DNA of 64,000 nucleotides, taken from Polyangiaceae bacterium (GTDB taxonomy: Bacteria > Myxococcota_A > Polyangia > Polyangiales > Polyangiaceae). Below the pieces are notes generated by a model. The model saw only the letters and a list, made by a program, of their open reading frames with translations, was not told where the DNA came from and did no database searches. Position 1 is the stretch's first letter; the number at the start of each line of letters is the position of its first letter. Made by a program: the position numbers and the translations under genes. This document shows, in pieces, positions 40,304 through 49,367 of the stretch. The stretch spans positions 1 through 64,000 of the forward strand of contig JAICQQ010000006.1 in the NCBI GenBank assembly GCA_025937785.1, given 5' to 3'.

Positions 40304-41497
40304 ATGGCAGACGTCGTACTGAAGGCAGGTCGGGTGCGCCCGGTTTGGGCAGGCCACCCCTGGGTGTTTGCGCAGGCCGTGGAGCGCATCACCGGTCAGG
40401 CCGCCGCCGGGGATGAAGTACGGGTGCTGGATGCCAAAGGCCACGTACTCGGACGCGGCTTGTACTCGCCGGCGTCCGCGATTCGGGTCCGGCTCTACAC
40501 CCGCGATGGGGAGCAGCCGCTCGACGCGGCGTTCCTGCTCCGACGCCTCGGCGAAGCGTTGGCCCGCCGCCAACGCTTCGGCCTGCCCGGCGACGGCACC
40601 GACGCTTTCCGCGTGCTGAACGCAGAGGGGGACGGGTTGCCGGGGCTCGTGGTGGACCAGCTCGGCGACGTGAGCCTGTTGCAGTTCTCGACGCTCGGCA
40701 TGAAGCAGCGACAGGCGGAGGTGGTCGAGGCGGTCAAAAACCTGCTCCCCTCACGTGCCATCGTCGACCGAACGCCCCCGAAGAGCGCGGCCCTCGAAGG
40801 CTTCGAGCCGGGGACGGGCGTGATCGCAGGGGACGAGGCGCTCGACACGCTGCGCTTCGAGGAGCACGGGCTGCGCTTCGAAGTGCCGCTCCAGATCGGG
40901 CAGAAAACCGGATTCTACCTGGACTTGAGGCAGCTTCGGAAGCGCCTGGGCGAGCTCGCGCGGGGACGCCAGGTGCTCGACTGTTATTCGTACATAGGTG
41001 CAGCAGGCTTGAGCATGGCGCGCGGGGGCGCCACCGAGGTGCTGTCCGTCGACTCGAGCGAACTCGCCGTGAACGTCGCCCGACACTGTGTCGCGCTGAA
41101 CCAGCTCGGTGACCGCATGCGCGTAGAACGAATGCAGGCCCAAGCGGCCCTGGAGCGAGCCGCGGCCCAAGGCGGCGTCGACCTGGTGCTGTGCGACCCT
41201 CCGAAGCTCGCTCCCAAGCGATCCGCCCTGGACCGCGCGTTGCGGGCCATGGAAGCCCTCGCCGAGGGGGCCCTGCGCGCCACGCGCCCAGGAGGTATCG
41301 CGGTGGTGTGTTCGTGCTCCGCGGGTTTGGGTATGGCCGAACTCGAGCGGGCGCTGGCCGTCGGTGCTGCCCGCGCTGGACGCCGGGCTACCGTGCTCGA
41401 GCGTATCTTCCAGGATGCCGACCATCCCGTGCCTGCCGCCTTTCCCGAGGGCCTGTACCTCAGTACCCTGATCGCCGAGGTTTCCCTGGACCGATGA
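40304..41497 (+). CDS. rlmI: Class I SAM-dependent rRNA methyltransferase, RlmI-like
   Basis: PUA-like N-terminus (GHPWVFAQAVERI), KTGFYLDLRQLR, DCYSYIGAAGLSMARGGA, LCDPPKLAP. Confidence 0.9.
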   Translation: MADVVLKAGRVRPVWAGHPWVFAQAVERITGQAAAGDEVRVLDAKGHVLGRGLYSPASAIRVRLYTRDGEQPLDAAFLLRRLGEALARRQRFGLPGDGTDAFRVLNAEGDGLPGLVVDQLGDVSLLQFSTLGMKQRQAEVVEAVKNLLPSRAIVDRTPPKSAALEGFEPGTGVIAGDEALDTLRFEEHGLRFEVPLQIGQKTGFYLDLRQLRKRLGELARGRQVLDCYSYIGAAGLSMARGGATEVLSVDSSELAVNVARHCVALNQLGDRMRVERMQAQAALERAAAQGGVDLVLCDPPKLAPKRSALDRALRAMEALAEGALRATRPGGIAVVCSCSAGLGMAELERALAVGAARAGRRATVLERIFQDADHPVPAAFPEGLYLSTLIAEVSLDR

Positions 41498-43359
41498 ACA
41501 GTGCTGCGCTGAAGCATGGGCCGCTGGGGTTCTTGGCCGCTTTGTGCCTCGTACCCCTGGTTGCCGCGTGCGGCGAGCGGGCCGGGGCTCGGGCGGAAGC
41601 GCGGCCGCCAGACGGCCGGAGCGCGAGCAACGTTCTCTACGGCGACTTCGCGGGGAGTCAGGCGTGCGCCGATTGCCACCCGGCAATCTTCGAGCGCTGG
41701 AGTCGTTCGCCGATGCACCAGATGACGCGCCCGTCGAAGCGCGGGGTCAGTCAGGCTCCGTTCGATGGATCCCAGTTCCATTTCAAGGGCGACGTCGCGA
41801 CGATGGTGACCGAGGCGGGTGAGCACTACATGCACCTCGAGTCGCGAGCGTACCCGAGCGCCTGGTACCGCATCACCAAAGTGATCGGCGGCCGCTACCG
41901 CGAGGATTACGCGGGCGTGCAGGTCGCCGCGGCGCGGCCCGACGCCTCGCCGGCGAGCGACGAGCGCATACTGCCCGTCTCTTACCTATTGTTCGAGAAG
42001 AGTTGGCGCTACAAAGGCTACTCGGTGATGTCGCCAGAGCGCGGCGCGCTCCGGCGCGGCTTGAAATGGCGCACCTCATGCGTTTTCTGCCACAACACGA
42101 CCCCGTGGCTGGCCAACTACTACGATGAACTCTACGGCGTCGGCGCCCCGAGCTACCAGGGCGCCGCCAGCCTCAAACTTCCCTCCGATCGCAGGCTCGC
42201 GTACGCGGTCACCGACCCCGACGCGTTCGAGCGCGCGCTCACCGACGAGCTGGAGCGGATGGACGCAGAGGCACCCGAGGGTGACGATCTGCCGTCACTG
42301 CTGGAAGCCGCCTCCGAAGCCACCCACGAGCACTTCACGGAAGCGCACCTGGTCGAGATCGGCGTCGGTTGTGAGGCGTGCCACGGCGGCGCGCGCGCCC
42401 ACGTCGCAAACCCCAGCGGGGTGACCCCGAGCTTCCTCCCCAGCGCCCCTTTCCTCAGCGTGCGTACGGCAGCCGGGCGGCGCGTGTCCGAAGCGCCCGC
42501 CATGACGCACAGCTGCGCCAAGTGCCACACCGTGCTGTTCTCGCGCTACCCGTATACGTGGGAAGGCGGCGAACGAGGTTTCGATCCCGGTGGCAGCAGC
42601 ATGAACTCGGGGGAGGCCCGGGACTTTCTGTTAGGCGGCTGCAGCTCGGCGCTGGCCTGCACGAACTGTCACGATCCGCACGGAAACGACGACTCGAGCA
42701 AGAGCGCACGCCTCGAAAGCGTGGAAGGCAATTCCGTCTGCACCAGCTGCCATAGCGACTACCGCTCCTCGGAGGGCCTGAGTGGCCACACCCACCACGG
42801 CGCCGCCAGCCAGGGCAGCGCCTGCGTGGCCTGTCACATGCCGAAGAAGAACGTCGCCCTCGACTATGACCTGACCCGCTATCATCGCATCGGCTCGCCT
42901 ACCGACCGCGCCCGGGTGGAGCAGGATCGGCCGCTGGAATGCGCGCTCTGCCACACGGACAAGACCGTACGCGAACTGGTCACCGACATGGAGCGGCTCT
43001 GGCCCCGGCGCTACGACCGCGATGCGCTCGAGCGCTTGTACGGGCCAAGCCTCGACGTGAACGCGATTTCCGCGACGCTGGCTCGTGGGAAACCCCACGA
43101 ACAAGTGGTGGCGATCCACGTGCTCGGGCGAGAGCGACGTGCCGACGCCGTCGAGGCGATCGCCGCACAGCTCGATCACGACTTCCCGCTCTTGCGCTTC
43201 TTTGCCCGGGACGCGCTCGAGCGAATCACGGGCAAGCGACTCGCATTGGACATGCACGCAGAGGGGCCGGCGATCGTAGCCCAAGCGCGGAAGGGGCTGG
43301 GGTTGGATCACGCTCCGCGCCCTCGAACCGAACAGGAACCCACCCATGCAACCGATTGA
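41494..43359 (+). CDS. Octaheme cytochrome c lipoprotein with C-terminal HEAT-like region
   Basis: Lipobox LVAACGE; eight CXXCH: CADCH, CVFCH, CEACH, CAKCH, CTNCH, CTSCH, CVACH, CALCH; ATGA overlap with the rlmI stop. Confidence 0.9.
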   Translation: MNSAALKHGPLGFLAALCLVPLVAACGERAGARAEARPPDGRSASNVLYGDFAGSQACADCHPAIFERWSRSPMHQMTRPSKRGVSQAPFDGSQFHFKGDVATMVTEAGEHYMHLESRAYPSAWYRITKVIGGRYREDYAGVQVAAARPDASPASDERILPVSYLLFEKSWRYKGYSVMSPERGALRRGLKWRTSCVFCHNTTPWLANYYDELYGVGAPSYQGAASLKLPSDRRLAYAVTDPDAFERALTDELERMDAEAPEGDDLPSLLEAASEATHEHFTEAHLVEIGVGCEACHGGARAHVANPSGVTPSFLPSAPFLSVRTAAGRRVSEAPAMTHSCAKCHTVLFSRYPYTWEGGERGFDPGGSSMNSGEARDFLLGGCSSALACTNCHDPHGNDDSSKSARLESVEGNSVCTSCHSDYRSSEGLSGHTHHGAASQGSACVACHMPKKNVALDYDLTRYHRIGSPTDRARVEQDRPLECALCHTDKTVRELVTDMERLWPRRYDRDALERLYGPSLDVNAISATLARGKPHEQVVAIHVLGRERRADAVEAIAAQLDHDFPLLRFFARDALERITGKRLALDMHAEGPAIVAQARKGLGLDHAPRPRTEQEPTHATD

Positions 43360-44125: not shown

Positions 44126-44260
44126 TCGAAAGCGGGTGCGGCGAGCGCCCGCGGCTCGTGTTTCCTTGCAGTTTCGCTGGCATCGTGCGCTCGAACGGAA
44201 AACGTGCCGCCTCGGGGTTGGCAAACCTGCGAAAGCTCTAGTAGTGCTTGCCCTTTCCCC

Positions 44261-45463
44261 ATGACCACGCCTTTGGAAAAGCTCCTCGAGTCGGCTCGAA
44301 CCCACCTGTATCCGAACTACCGGCAACCCGATCTCGTGATGTCGCACGGCGAGGGCGTCTATGTCTGGGATACCAGCGGCAAACGCTATCTGGACATGTA
44401 CGCCGGCATCGCGGTCAACGTGCTCGGGCACGCCCACCCCGCGATCGTTTCGGCGTTGCAAGAGCAGGCGGCTCGCCTCGGTCACATGTCGAATTACTTC
44501 TACAACGAGCCGAACATCGAGCTCGCCGAACGCCTGTGCCGCCTGACGGGCATGCAGCGCGTGTTGTTCGGCAACTCCGGAACCGAGGCCAACGAGGCGA
44601 TGTTGAAGCTCGCCCGCCACCACTTTTACTCCGCGGGCCAGGTCGAGCGCTATCGCGTGATCGCGTTCGAAAACTCGTTTCACGGGCGCACGCTGGGCGC
44701 GCTGGCGCTCACGGGTCAGGACAAGTACCGTGAAGGCTTCGGTCCGCTACCGGGAGTCAGCCACGTGCCGTTCGGCGATCTCGCCGCCGTCGAGCGGACC
44801 ATGGGCCCCGACGTCGCCGCCGTCATCGTCGAAACCGTCCAAGGCGAGGGCGGCGTGGTGCCGGCTTCAGCGGGCTTCCTCGAGGGGCTGCGCAAGCTCA
44901 CCGAGGCGCAGGGCGCGCTGCTGCTGATCGACGAAATCCAGACCGGAGTCGCCCGCACGGGTCGTTTTCTAGGCATTCACCATTATCCCCGCGTGCGGCC
45001 CGACGCGCTCTCGATGGCCAAAGCGCTGGCCGGCGGTGTCCCCATCGGCGCCATGCTCTGCACCGAGAAGCTCGCGGGCGCGCTGCCTCCCGGCAGCCAC
45101 GGCAGCACCTTCGGCGGTAATCCCCTCGCCTCGCGAGTGGCACTCAGCGTGCTCGACGTCGTCGAGAAACGAGATCTCGCCGGACATTCCGCCCGCGTGG
45201 GAGCCTATCTCGGCGAGCGGCTCGCGGCGCTCACCCGTTACCCTGCGGTCACCGGCGCGCGGGGCCAGGGCCTGTTGCAGGCCCTCGAGCTCAGCGAAAC
45301 CGTCGACGCGCGCACGGTGGTGACCGATCTGCGCGAGGCCGGGGTACTAGTCACTGTCGCGGGCGGCAGAGCACTGCGCTTTTCACCGCCGCTCATCATC
45401 ACGCAGGAACAGGTCGACGAGGGGGTAGGCATCGTCGCAGAGGTCGTAGGAAGGCTCACATGA
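44261..45463 (+). CDS. argD: Acetylornithine aminotransferase
   Basis: GNSGTEANEAMLKLAR, FHGRTLGALALTG, LLIDEIQTGVARTGR; adjacent argF. Confidence 0.94.
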   Translation: MTTPLEKLLESARTHLYPNYRQPDLVMSHGEGVYVWDTSGKRYLDMYAGIAVNVLGHAHPAIVSALQEQAARLGHMSNYFYNEPNIELAERLCRLTGMQRVLFGNSGTEANEAMLKLARHHFYSAGQVERYRVIAFENSFHGRTLGALALTGQDKYREGFGPLPGVSHVPFGDLAAVERTMGPDVAAVIVETVQGEGGVVPASAGFLEGLRKLTEAQGALLLIDEIQTGVARTGRFLGIHHYPRVRPDALSMAKALAGGVPIGAMLCTEKLAGALPPGSHGSTFGGNPLASRVALSVLDVVEKRDLAGHSARVGAYLGERLAALTRYPAVTGARGQGLLQALELSETVDARTVVTDLREAGVLVTVAGGRALRFSPPLIITQEQVDEGVGIVAEVVGRLT

Positions 45464-46374
45464 TCCGGCATTTTCTCTGTCTCTCGGACCTGGGCAGCCA
45501 GCAGTTGCTCGCAGTGCTGGACGACGCCGACCGGTTCCTCGAACGGCGCAACCAGGGGACCGGACACCCGCTGCGCAACAAGGCAGTAGCGCTGGTCTTC
45601 GACAAGGCCTCGACGCGCACTCGGCTTTCGCTGGAGGTCGCCGTGGTCGAACTCGGCGGCCACCCTGTAGTCATCACGTCGGCCACCTCCCAGCTCGGGC
45701 GCGGTGAACCACTGAGCGACACGGCCCGCGTGCTGTCGCGCATGGTCCACGCCATCGCGTTTCGCACGGCCGATGAGTCGCGCATCAAAGAGCTGATGCA
45801 GTACAGCTCGGTGCCCGTGTTGAACGCCCTCACCGACCAGGGGCATCCGATGCAGTTGCTCGCCGACCTGCAGACCGTGCGCCGGGCCAAGGGCCGCCTC
45901 CAGGGCTTGAGCTACGCCTGGCTCGGCGACGGCAACAACATGGCCAACTCTTGGCTCGAAGCCGCTAGCTTGCTCCAGCTGCGTCTGCGCTTGGCCTGCC
46001 CCGAGGGCTACGACCCCGACGCGCAGCTCCTGGCTCGCGCCCGCGCCGCGGGGGCCGATGTGGAGGTCGTCCGCTCTCCTCGCGAAGCGGTCGCCGGCGC
46101 CGACGTGGTGAGCACCGACGTGTTCACCAGCATGGGGCAAGAGGCCGAGCAGGCGGCTCGCCTGAAGGCGTTCGAAGGCTACATGCTCGACCGAAAGCTG
46201 CTGGCGTTGGCCAAGCCCGACGCGATGGTACTGCATTGTCTTCCCGCGCATCGCGGCGAAGAAATCGAGGCAGAGGTCCTGGAGGGTTCGCACAGCCACG
46301 TCTGGGACCAAGCGGAGGCGCGACTGCACACCTCCAAGGCCATCCTGGCGTGGGCGCTCGCGAGCGATGAGTGA
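45460..46374 (+). CDS. argF: Ornithine carbamoyltransferase
   Basis: KASTRTRLSLEVAVVELGG, HPMQLLADLQT, GDGNNMANSW, VLHCLPAHRGEEI; ATGA overlap with argD. Confidence 0.95.
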   Translation: MIRHFLCLSDLGSQQLLAVLDDADRFLERRNQGTGHPLRNKAVALVFDKASTRTRLSLEVAVVELGGHPVVITSATSQLGRGEPLSDTARVLSRMVHAIAFRTADESRIKELMQYSSVPVLNALTDQGHPMQLLADLQTVRRAKGRLQGLSYAWLGDGNNMANSWLEAASLLQLRLRLACPEGYDPDAQLLARARAAGADVEVVRSPREAVAGADVVSTDVFTSMGQEAEQAARLKAFEGYMLDRKLLALAKPDAMVLHCLPAHRGEEIEAEVLEGSHSHVWDQAEARLHTSKAILAWALASDE

Positions 46375-46380
46375 GCCGGC

Positions 46381-48669
46381 ATGGTCGAAGAGGCATCCTC
46401 CCAAGAGCCCGACCGCGCGTCGTTCCCGGTCTCGGGCAGCGTAGCCTGCGCCACGTGCGGCACTGCGGTCGACCCGCTGCGCGCGGAACGAGTCAGGATG
46501 CTGCAGGAGCGCTTTCGGTATTTCTGCAGCGCCAGCTGCGCCGGCAGCTTCGACATCGCGGGCCTGACACCGCTACCACAGCCTCGGCGGCGGCGCCCGT
46601 CGGACTCCCCGTTCGTGATCAAGACGGCGCTGAGCACTGATGAACGCCTCGAAGCGCGCAGGCACATCGCCACCGAGCTGAACAGCCTGATTCACGAGGA
46701 CGGGCTGGACCCTGCTGGGTTTCGCGAAACTCCGAGCGCGACCGAGCCGCTGGCCCCCCCAGAAGAACCTGCCGCTGGGGCGCACGCAGGCGCGGCCGAC
46801 ATCGGCTCGCTGCTCTTGACCCTGGCGATGCTCGGCGGGGCGCTGGGTATCGCCCTGCTCTTGGCAGGCGATTCGCAGGCCGCGCTGGTGTCGCGCCTGG
46901 TCGTGGTGTGCGTCGGGTGTGCGTCACTCGTAGCTCAAGGCCTGATGGGCGACCGCGACGAAAGCGAGCCACACCCCCTCAGTGTGCTGGCCGCCCCGGT
47001 GTTGGCGACGATCACGGCGATCGCCGGCACTCTGCTCGAAGAGCCGATGGTGCAAGGGGCCATCACGCTGAGCGCCGTCATCGTGGGCATGCTCGCCCTG
47101 AGCCTCTGGCTCGTGCGCCGGGCGCGCCGGCCCATCGACGCGGAACGCGCAAGGATCGCCGCGTTGCTCGAGCACAAGAGCCAGCGCGTCGTAGGCGAAG
47201 AGATCGCACCGGTGCGCGCCCGCGATCTGCGCCCGGGCGAAGAGATCGTGGTAGACGACGGCGAAATCATCCCGATTGACGGCACCATCTCGGCCGGCGG
47301 CGCCACGCTCAGGCCTTGGCTCACGGCCAGCGGGAGCGTCGAGTGCGCCGAAGGCGACATCGTGGTCGCTGGCGCGCGCGTGCTGACCGGCCGCATCCGC
47401 GTGGTGGTGGGCTGGGCGGGCTACGACCGCACCTGGGTGCGCCTCACCAACGACCCGCGCCGGCGCGCCGATCTGCTGGCGCCGCTGCCCCGGGCGGGCC
47501 GGCTGATCGCGGAGCGAGCAGCACCGCTGGCGGCCGGGCTCGCCGGCCTCACCTCATTCGCGGCCAACGCCGACCCCATGACGATCGCGCTCTTCGCGCT
47601 TGCGGCGCAGGCCGCTGTGGCGCACCCGGCCATCGCACAGATCGCGGCGCTCGCTGTGGCGCGCGGCGTACTCGATGGACTGCGCCGAGGCGTCGCGTTC
47701 CGCACCGCCGAAGCCCTCGACACCGCGGGCCGCGTGAGCATGGCGACGTTCTGCGCACGAGGCACGCTCTTGCTCGGTGAGCCGGAGGTGGCCAACGTAG
47801 AGCCAATCGGCGAGCACGACGCCAGTACCGTGCTCGCGCTGATCGCAGGCGCCGAGAGCGGCGCCAGCGACCCCGTGGCCACGGCGATGCTACGGGCGGC
47901 GCGCGCTCGGGGTGTCCGCCCCGACGGTGCCAGAAGCCACACGGCGCAGCCGGGGCTGGGCATCACCGCGGTCTCTTCCGGCGGCCAGCGCTTGGTCGTC
48001 GGCAGCCGTGCGCTGATGTTGCAGGAACGCGTCAGCGTGGCCAGCGCCGAGACCAAGATCAACGAGCTCGAAGGCCTCGGCCGCTCCGTACTCTTGGTGG
48101 CGTTGGGAGGCCGCCTTGTCGGGGTGGTCGGACTTCAGGACGGACTGCGTCCCGGGGCGCGAGCCGCGGTCCAGTATCTGGCGGACGTCGGCGTGGAGCC
48201 GGTGCTACTCTCGGGCGACGCTCGCGAGACTTGCGAAGCGCTCGGCCGCACCCTGGACATCGAGCACGTTCGCCCCGAAATCCTGCCGCCTGACCGCGGC
48301 GAAGAGATTCGGCGCCTCGCCGCTGGTGGCGGCAGTGTCGCGGTCATCGGTCGCAGCCCCGTCGACGACGGCGCGCTCAGCGCCGCGGATGTATCGGTAG
48401 CCCTCTCGTCGGCGGGTTCTACCACGGCTGAGTGGTCGGTGCAGCTCGCCTCGGACGACATCAAAGAAGCGGCGTTCGCCATCCGCCTGGCGCATGACAC
48501 CCGCAAAGAAGCTCGCTCGGGCCTGGTCACAGCGCTCACGCCCGCGGTGGCAGGCGCGCTAGCCGTAACGTTTTCGTTAGTGCCTCCTCTGCTAGCGCCG
48601 CTGGCCGCCACTGCTGCCGGCTGCCTGGCCCTGTACCGGGCGCGCGGACAGGGGTCCGACAGGAACTGA
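46381..48669 (+). CDS. P1B-type ATPase-like protein lacking catalytic motifs (candidate pseudoenzyme) with N-terminal YHS/TRASH-like metal-binding motif
   Basis: Overall P-type ATPase layout; TFCARGTLLLGEPEV in place of VFDKTGTLTxGxPEV; N-terminal CATCGTAVDP...YFCSASCAGSFD. Confidence 0.85.
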   Translation: MVEEASSQEPDRASFPVSGSVACATCGTAVDPLRAERVRMLQERFRYFCSASCAGSFDIAGLTPLPQPRRRRPSDSPFVIKTALSTDERLEARRHIATELNSLIHEDGLDPAGFRETPSATEPLAPPEEPAAGAHAGAADIGSLLLTLAMLGGALGIALLLAGDSQAALVSRLVVVCVGCASLVAQGLMGDRDESEPHPLSVLAAPVLATITAIAGTLLEEPMVQGAITLSAVIVGMLALSLWLVRRARRPIDAERARIAALLEHKSQRVVGEEIAPVRARDLRPGEEIVVDDGEIIPIDGTISAGGATLRPWLTASGSVECAEGDIVVAGARVLTGRIRVVVGWAGYDRTWVRLTNDPRRRADLLAPLPRAGRLIAERAAPLAAGLAGLTSFAANADPMTIALFALAAQAAVAHPAIAQIAALAVARGVLDGLRRGVAFRTAEALDTAGRVSMATFCARGTLLLGEPEVANVEPIGEHDASTVLALIAGAESGASDPVATAMLRAARARGVRPDGARSHTAQPGLGITAVSSGGQRLVVGSRALMLQERVSVASAETKINELEGLGRSVLLVALGGRLVGVVGLQDGLRPGARAAVQYLADVGVEPVLLSGDARETCEALGRTLDIEHVRPEILPPDRGEEIRRLAAGGGSVAVIGRSPVDDGALSAADVSVALSSAGSTTAEWSVQLASDDIKEAAFAIRLAHDTRKEARSGLVTALTPAVAGALAVTFSLVPPLLAPLAATAAGCLALYRARGQGSDRN

Positions 48670-48815: not shown

Positions 48816-49367
48816 GTGACCGCACAGGATTCGAGAAGGCCCCCTGAGTCTCATGCCGGTGCCGAGGTGGGGACCGCTGCACGCGCGCCGAACCTCGAGC
48901 GACTGCGCGGTCAACTCGAGGTGTACATGGCGGAGCAAGGCTTGCGCTCCACCGAACAGCGTCGGCTCATCATCGACAAGTTCTTCGAGTCTGCCCAGCA
49001 CCTGACGATCGACGAGCTGTTGGGGCGTGTGCGCCACGAAGACCCCAAGGTCGGCTACGCAACCGTGTACCGAACCATGAAAATGCTCGCTGACGGTGGC
49101 ATCGCGCACGAGCTGAATTTCGGCGACAATGCGACGCGCTACGAGCTCGCCGACGAAGAGGCCCACCACGATCACCTGATTTGCCAGAAGTGCGGCCACA
49201 TCATCGAGTTCGAAGAGCCCTTGATCGAAGAGCTGCAAGAGCGCATCGCGGCGCGCTACAATTTCGAGATCAAGCATCACAAGCACGAGTTGTACGGCAA
49301 CTGTAAGAACACCGCCGAGTGCGAGCAGCGGCTGGCGCACACCGGGGACCGAGAATACTCCAAGTAA
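48816..49367 (+). CDS. fur: Fur family transcriptional regulator
   Basis: LRSTEQRRLIIDKFFES, YATVYRTMKMLADGGIAHEL, HHDHLICQKCGHIIEFEEP, HKHELYGNC; GTG start. Confidence 0.92.
   Translation: MTAQDSRRPPESHAGAEVGTAARAPNLERLRGQLEVYMAEQGLRSTEQRRLIIDKFFESAQHLTIDELLGRVRHEDPKVGYATVYRTMKMLADGGIAHELNFGDNATRYELADEEAHHDHLICQKCGHIIEFEEPLIEELQERIAARYNFEIKHHKHELYGNCKNTAECEQRLAHTGDREYSK

Follow-up and report, generated by a model that had tools for sequence, protein, structure and literature searches.

P-type ATPases are defined by a phosphorylated aspartate. What, then, is the product of a gene that keeps the architecture of a heavy-metal P-type ATPase and carries a cysteine codon where that aspartate should be? 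The gene lies in a 64,000-nucleotide stretch of DNA from a Polyangiaceae bacterium (the window), part of a 9.4-Mb assembly, in 501 contigs, of a soil myxobacterium. An earlier note on this DNA had described an intact frame of 762 codons, and the frame is indeed open from its ATG to its stop (Table 1). The protein matches PF00122 (E1-E2_ATPase; 49.7 bits against a cut-off of 28.1) and PF00702 (HAD hydrolase; 45.6 bits against 26.4), and CopA aligns with its residues 204-742 (phmmer E=8e-37). With both domains in the P-type order and a CopA-like fold, it belongs by homology to the P-type ATPase superfamily. Its top subfamily model is TIGR01525, the heavy-metal P-type ATPases, at 216.8 bits, which is well below the curated NCBI cut-off of 346.25.

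Table 1. Features of the pseudo-ATPase gene and its neighbors, in coordinates of the window.
Feature	Position	Strand	Remarks
argD, acetylornithine transaminase, upstream operon neighbor	44204..45463	+	TIGR00707 452.8 bits, above cut-off; conserved neighbor
argF, ornithine carbamoyltransferase	45460..46374	+	TIGR00658 359 bits, above cut-off; stops 6 bases short of the pseudo-ATPase gene
Pseudo-P1B ATPase gene, 762 aa	46381..48669	+	Open from ATG to stop; PF00122, PF00702; 99 homologs
TRASH/YHS-like finger CxxC-DPLRA-FCxxxC, residues 23-53	46447..46539	+	Four near-invariant Cys
Actuator (A) domain, residues 263-362	47167..47466	+	TGES replaced by LTASGS (314-319) at 47320-47337
M4 site, CPC replaced by AHPA (residues 414-417)	47620..47631	+	Alignment with actives
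Former phosphorylation motif, DKTGT replaced by CARGT	47752..47766	+	C458, codon 47752-47754; Asp 0/99
Nucleotide-binding (N) domain, retained	47818..48030	+	GxG at 47953-47961; invariant Arg543
HAD motif III Lys replaced by conserved Arg639	48295..48297	+	R in 89/99 homologs, K in 27/27 actives
Mg-binding motif, GDGxND replaced by GRSPVD (GRSPVDD = 657-663)	48349..48366	+	Alignment with actives
Fur-family regulator, downstream neighbor	48816..49367	+	PF01475 127 bits; conserved neighbor

A structure prediction, one of the checks proposed in the earlier note, returned a CopA-like fold. The AlphaFold model, for which 40 window and locus proteins served as input, has a mean pLDDT of 90.5 and a pTM of 0.81; disorder is confined to the N-terminal tail and the linker. 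All transmembrane helices are predicted at high confidence, and the eight-helix pump scaffold is retained. The closest PDB match is the E1-state CopA 7r0g (E=2e-35, TM 0.62). E1-type entries generally fit better than the E2 entries 4bbj and 4umw (TM 0.37-0.38), which is suggestive, and only suggestive, of an E1-like resting shape in the predicted protein.

To compare the catalytic motifs, we placed 99 distinct homologs without DKTGT and 27 active P1B ATPases from the same phylum in one alignment. The phosphorylated aspartate is present in all 27 actives and in none of the 99 homologs, where its column holds Cys (71), Ser (11), Leu (7), and others; in ≈15 members the residue is Leu, Ala, Val, Asn, or Gln, and the family fold is still present. 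The replacement motif, [C/S]ARGTLLLGEPE, is itself conserved across the homologs. Likewise, the catalytic glutamate of TGES, found in 27/27 actives, gives way to Ala (78), Ser (14), or Gly (5) and is never Glu among the 99; the TGD sequence survives as SGD. At the first aspartate of GDGxND, again invariant in the actives, the 96 members with sequence there have His (43), Arg (39), Gln (5), and other residues. The alignment thus places C458, LTASGS, and AHPA opposite the phosphorylation, TGES, and CPC motifs just as the earlier note had read them by eye. Its reading of the Mg site needs amendment: the Mg-binding aspartate is lost, but the segment opposite GDGxND is GRSPVD, and the last aspartate of the motif (D662) is kept in 95/99 homologs. 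Nor is every catalytic motif replaced, as the note had it, for the phospho-Asp, Mg Asp, TGES Glu, and CPC are gone but the N-domain with its GxG and G541 is retained.

Shared as it is by 99 distinct homologs, this pattern of losses goes beyond chance. The protein lacks each of the residues by which a P1B enzyme is recognized (the DKTGT Asp, the GDGxND Mg Asp, the TGES Glu, and the CPx site in M4). Because the two aspartates, the A-domain glutamate, and the CPC motif have all been lost, a protein of this sequence cannot, by established P-type ATPase chemistry, form a phosphoenzyme or pump. Catalytic residues have gone while the fold and selection on it remain, and the protein is almost certainly a pseudoenzyme.

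Much of the N-domain signature is shared across the family. Of the 97 members whose sequence covers this region, 96-97 retain GxG and G541, and Glu492 is conserved in 83 of the homologs. The nucleotide-contacting histidine of the HP motif (column of residue 497) is His in 69/99. Checked against the P1B N-domain signature (SEHP plus GxG), the protein of this genome has the GxG and G541 and carries Asp in place of His497. Beside this domain, positions 460, 639, and 658 (Arg460, Arg639, and Arg/His658) are all basic in 76/96 members. The former Mg-phosphate site appears to have changed from an acidic catalytic pocket to a basic one next to the retained N-domain. The idea of a basic pocket draws on the alignment, and such a pocket may bind an anionic ligand.

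A further departure from CopA and ZntA lies at the N terminus. The protein shares with these P1B ATPases their fold, topology, and N-domain glycines, but in addition to its catalytic losses it has a four-cysteine finger in place of the usual HMA domains. Among the 93 members that extend this far, 91-92 have all four cysteines, which are invariant in the alignment designated A3; they correspond to the metal-ligating cysteine set of a TRASH/YHS zinc finger. The finger has the C-x2-C...C-x3-C spacing of YHS/TRASH/MYM-type zinc fingers, but its DPLRA signature is distinct and most family members fall under the Pfam cut-offs (here DUF7576, 17.3 against 27 bits, and TRASH_HVO_1752_C, 12.7 against 27). 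The pattern was unmatched in all active ATPases of the alignment. The finger appears to be a new N-terminal element of these pseudo-ATPases that takes the place of HMA domains, and its cysteines would bind a transition metal, probably Zn or Cu.

Fingers of the DPLRA/YHS type are not limited to pseudo-ATPases. One occurs on a HEAT-repeat membrane protein (L226:4029-5738, f23) and others on short single-TM proteins, the other loci recorded being L233:3564-5162 (f23) and L230:4047-4463 (f29); the short relative at L230 exceeds the YHS cut-off. Occurring as it does on these other proteins too, the finger is a mobile module in this class.

The 99 homologs were gathered within the host order of Myxococcota, from Polyangiaceae and at least nine related families, and most have full-length frames. 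A search with a tighter alignment retrieved 58 named loci, and the named nearest relatives are all Polyangiaceae (Sorangium, Polyangium, Minicystis, Labilithrix, and many MAGs). With the motif columns removed, the pseudo members form one side of a single branch that sets them off from every active P1B ATPase (SH-aLRT 100). A single-protein search found one family copy per genome, and the tree follows the family groups, which together argue for vertical descent. In complete Sorangium genomes (L109, L113, and L119), the chromosome record begins ≈10 kb away from the gene, which may lie close to the origin.

Purifying selection is evident in three genera, with dN/dS (NG86) of 0.13-0.30 in Sorangium, 0.08-0.10 in Polyangium, and 0.14-0.21 in the third. 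By domain, the linker has the highest ratios, and the finger, P, and N domains are among the lowest; pN of the N-domain is 0 in Polyangium, and TM1-4 are well conserved in Sorangium (dN/dS 0.07). The earlier note had argued for selection on a non-transport role and against recent decay, a view that relatives with an intact DKTGT or conservation no better than neutral would have contradicted. No such DKTGT occurs in the 99 homologs, the ratios lie well below 1, and the loss is old and shared, so recent decay can be ruled out and the note's interpretation is supported. From these sequences, the family appears to be an old, vertically inherited group of P1B-type ATPase pseudoenzymes whose motif loss is most simply explained by a single event within the order.

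We initially regarded the family as confined to one order, a view overturned when searches with a profile of the finger found further, more eroded members in other orders of the class. In families f16 and f27 the HAD part is still there and the catalytic motifs are gone. In f20, from another order, proteins of ≈670-1100 aa (L215, L218, L220, L221, L223, L224, and L229) have mostly lost the A domain; where checked, a gene for a TrkH-type K+ transporter lies downstream, and the upstream gene, divergently oriented, encodes a TPR/zinc-ribbon protein. With the root on the active side, all members fit one pseudo clade, in which the f20 branch is long and its placement unsure. Genome G059 has the same four-Cys finger ahead of an HMA domain and a P1B ATPase that retains DKTGT, GDGIND, and CPC (L225:620-3394); one in-frame stop codon divides this sequence into two halves, and the ATPase groups with the actives. 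Its architecture may be ancestral or may reflect a separate fusion. Among 170 genomes sampled across the phylum, those outside the class yielded no match to the finger at E<=1e-9, and the pseudo-ATPase family was likewise not found in the other classes sampled.

The neighborhood of the gene, with identities checked against NCBIfam models, offers a clue to function. In Polyangiaceae the gene follows argD, often argD-argF, and is usually followed by fur; in families f3, f4, f5, f9, f10, and f11 it adjoins argH-lysA, often with an L,D-transpeptidase gene. Among 74 loci with enough flank, the neighbor is argD/argF in 46, argH in 13, fur alone in 2, and none of these in 13, the last count being inflated by long upstream ORF extensions that overlap argD. 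Fur is next to the gene in 29/74 loci, 27 of which also have argD/argF, and the gaps to argD/argF or argH are ≈6-20 bases in several loci. In the genomes checked, argF lies elsewhere where argH is the neighbor and argH lies elsewhere where argD is. The arginine neighbors may reflect two separate links to one pathway or the breakup of an ancestral cluster. Adjacency to arginine genes is absent in families f6, f8, and f20. As f6 has neither argD/argF, argH, nor fur beside the gene, and the f20 neighbor is TrkH, the arginine link is a lead that may amount to retained gene order. A direct role of the pseudo-ATPase in arginine metabolism is possible and rather doubtful.

Other features of these loci were also recorded. 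A conserved YkuD L,D-transpeptidase gene lies directly upstream of the pseudo-ATPase at L084, L086, L182, L183, and L186, all from argH-lysA families. Upstream of the arginine genes in the window, an ORF with many CxxCH motifs (41191-43359) encodes a multihaem cytochrome-like protein. A promoter scan was uninformative, as the sigma-70 consensus rarely fits this GC-rich group.

How might such a protein act? The reading we favor, with a little better than an even chance, is a metal- and nucleotide-responsive membrane pseudo-pump that serves as a sensor or scaffold. The four-Cys finger would bind Zn or Cu, and the N-domain together with the basic pocket would bind a nucleotide or another phosphate ligand without hydrolysis and probably without Mg; ligand binding would shift the E1-like fold of the membrane-bound protein. 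The output would bear on arginine biosynthesis (ArgD/ArgF or ArgH) or, through the neighboring Fur, on metal homeostasis, a step we hold more weakly. Because the finger is almost invariant, the role of metal sensor or scaffold proposed in the earlier note is plausible. Against the favored reading, residue 497 of the host protein is Asp and not the nucleotide-contacting His, and the finger stays under the Pfam cut-offs. Ligand sensing by the protein approaches an even chance, and the most specific version, in which the E1/E2 machinery of a pump now serves as a membrane switch that is gated by metal and nucleotide and controls arginine biosynthesis in myxobacteria, is unlikely.

Several alternatives account for part of these observations. 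If the protein only tethered ArgD/ArgF or ArgH to the membrane as a structural scaffold, without sensing, the close linkage with argD/argF in Polyangiaceae and with argH in six other families would be explained, but the near-invariant N-domain and finger suggest something more and three families lack the adjacency, which leaves this improbable. The complete scaffold and the metal finger would also suit a non-catalytic partner or inhibitor of an active P1B ATPase, acting by hetero-oligomerization or by competition for metal delivery. The same genome contains an active P1B ATPase with DKTGT (L001), and three P-type ATPases were counted in it apart from this gene. The known neighbors of the pseudo-ATPase, however, are arginine genes and fur, with no active ATPase seen among them, and since nearly every genome has active P1B ATPases, co-occurrence carries no information; we consider such a partnership improbable.

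The prevalence of Cys, with Ser in a further 11 members, in so conserved a motif raises the prospect that the protein still acts as a phosphatase or transferase, independent of metal, in which Cys has taken over from Asp as the nucleophile. We rejected this candidate since some members have no Cys there; with Leu, Ala, Val, Asn, or Gln in its column and the Mg-binding Asp gone, it is highly improbable. A passive channel or facilitator independent of ATP would be in keeping with the confidently predicted helices and the constraint on TM1-4, but M4 and the C-terminal helices have kept no conserved polar or metal-ligating residue, and this too is very unlikely. The loss of many catalytic residues, and of the A domain as well in relatives from another order, might point to a decaying pseudogene without function, but mostly full-length frames, conserved replacement motifs, and low dN/dS in three genera make that scarcely credible. 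The sensor or scaffold remains our preferred reading.

In the literature searched, with many subscription papers outside its scope, we found no report of such a family of pseudo-P-type ATPases. Two uncharacterized P-type ATPase families, 27 and 32, are listed in Myxococcus xanthus without mention of lost catalysis (PMC3924187); family 32 resembles the present family in being an uncharacterized P-type ATPase family of myxobacteria, a comparison made by description only (PMC3924187). The tyrosine pseudokinase EcpK of M. xanthus (PMC12004946) likewise keeps an enzyme fold and a function after losing catalysis, although its fold is different.

In databases, such proteins are probably annotated as heavy-metal transporters, which would be a misleading label. 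Their conserved pairing with arginine genes offers a concrete and testable place to seek their function. Overall, a whole clade has discarded the aspartate, kept the fold under selection across an order, and apparently rebuilt the active site, which would show that pump scaffolds, in parallel with kinases and proteases that have turned regulators, can become regulators as well.
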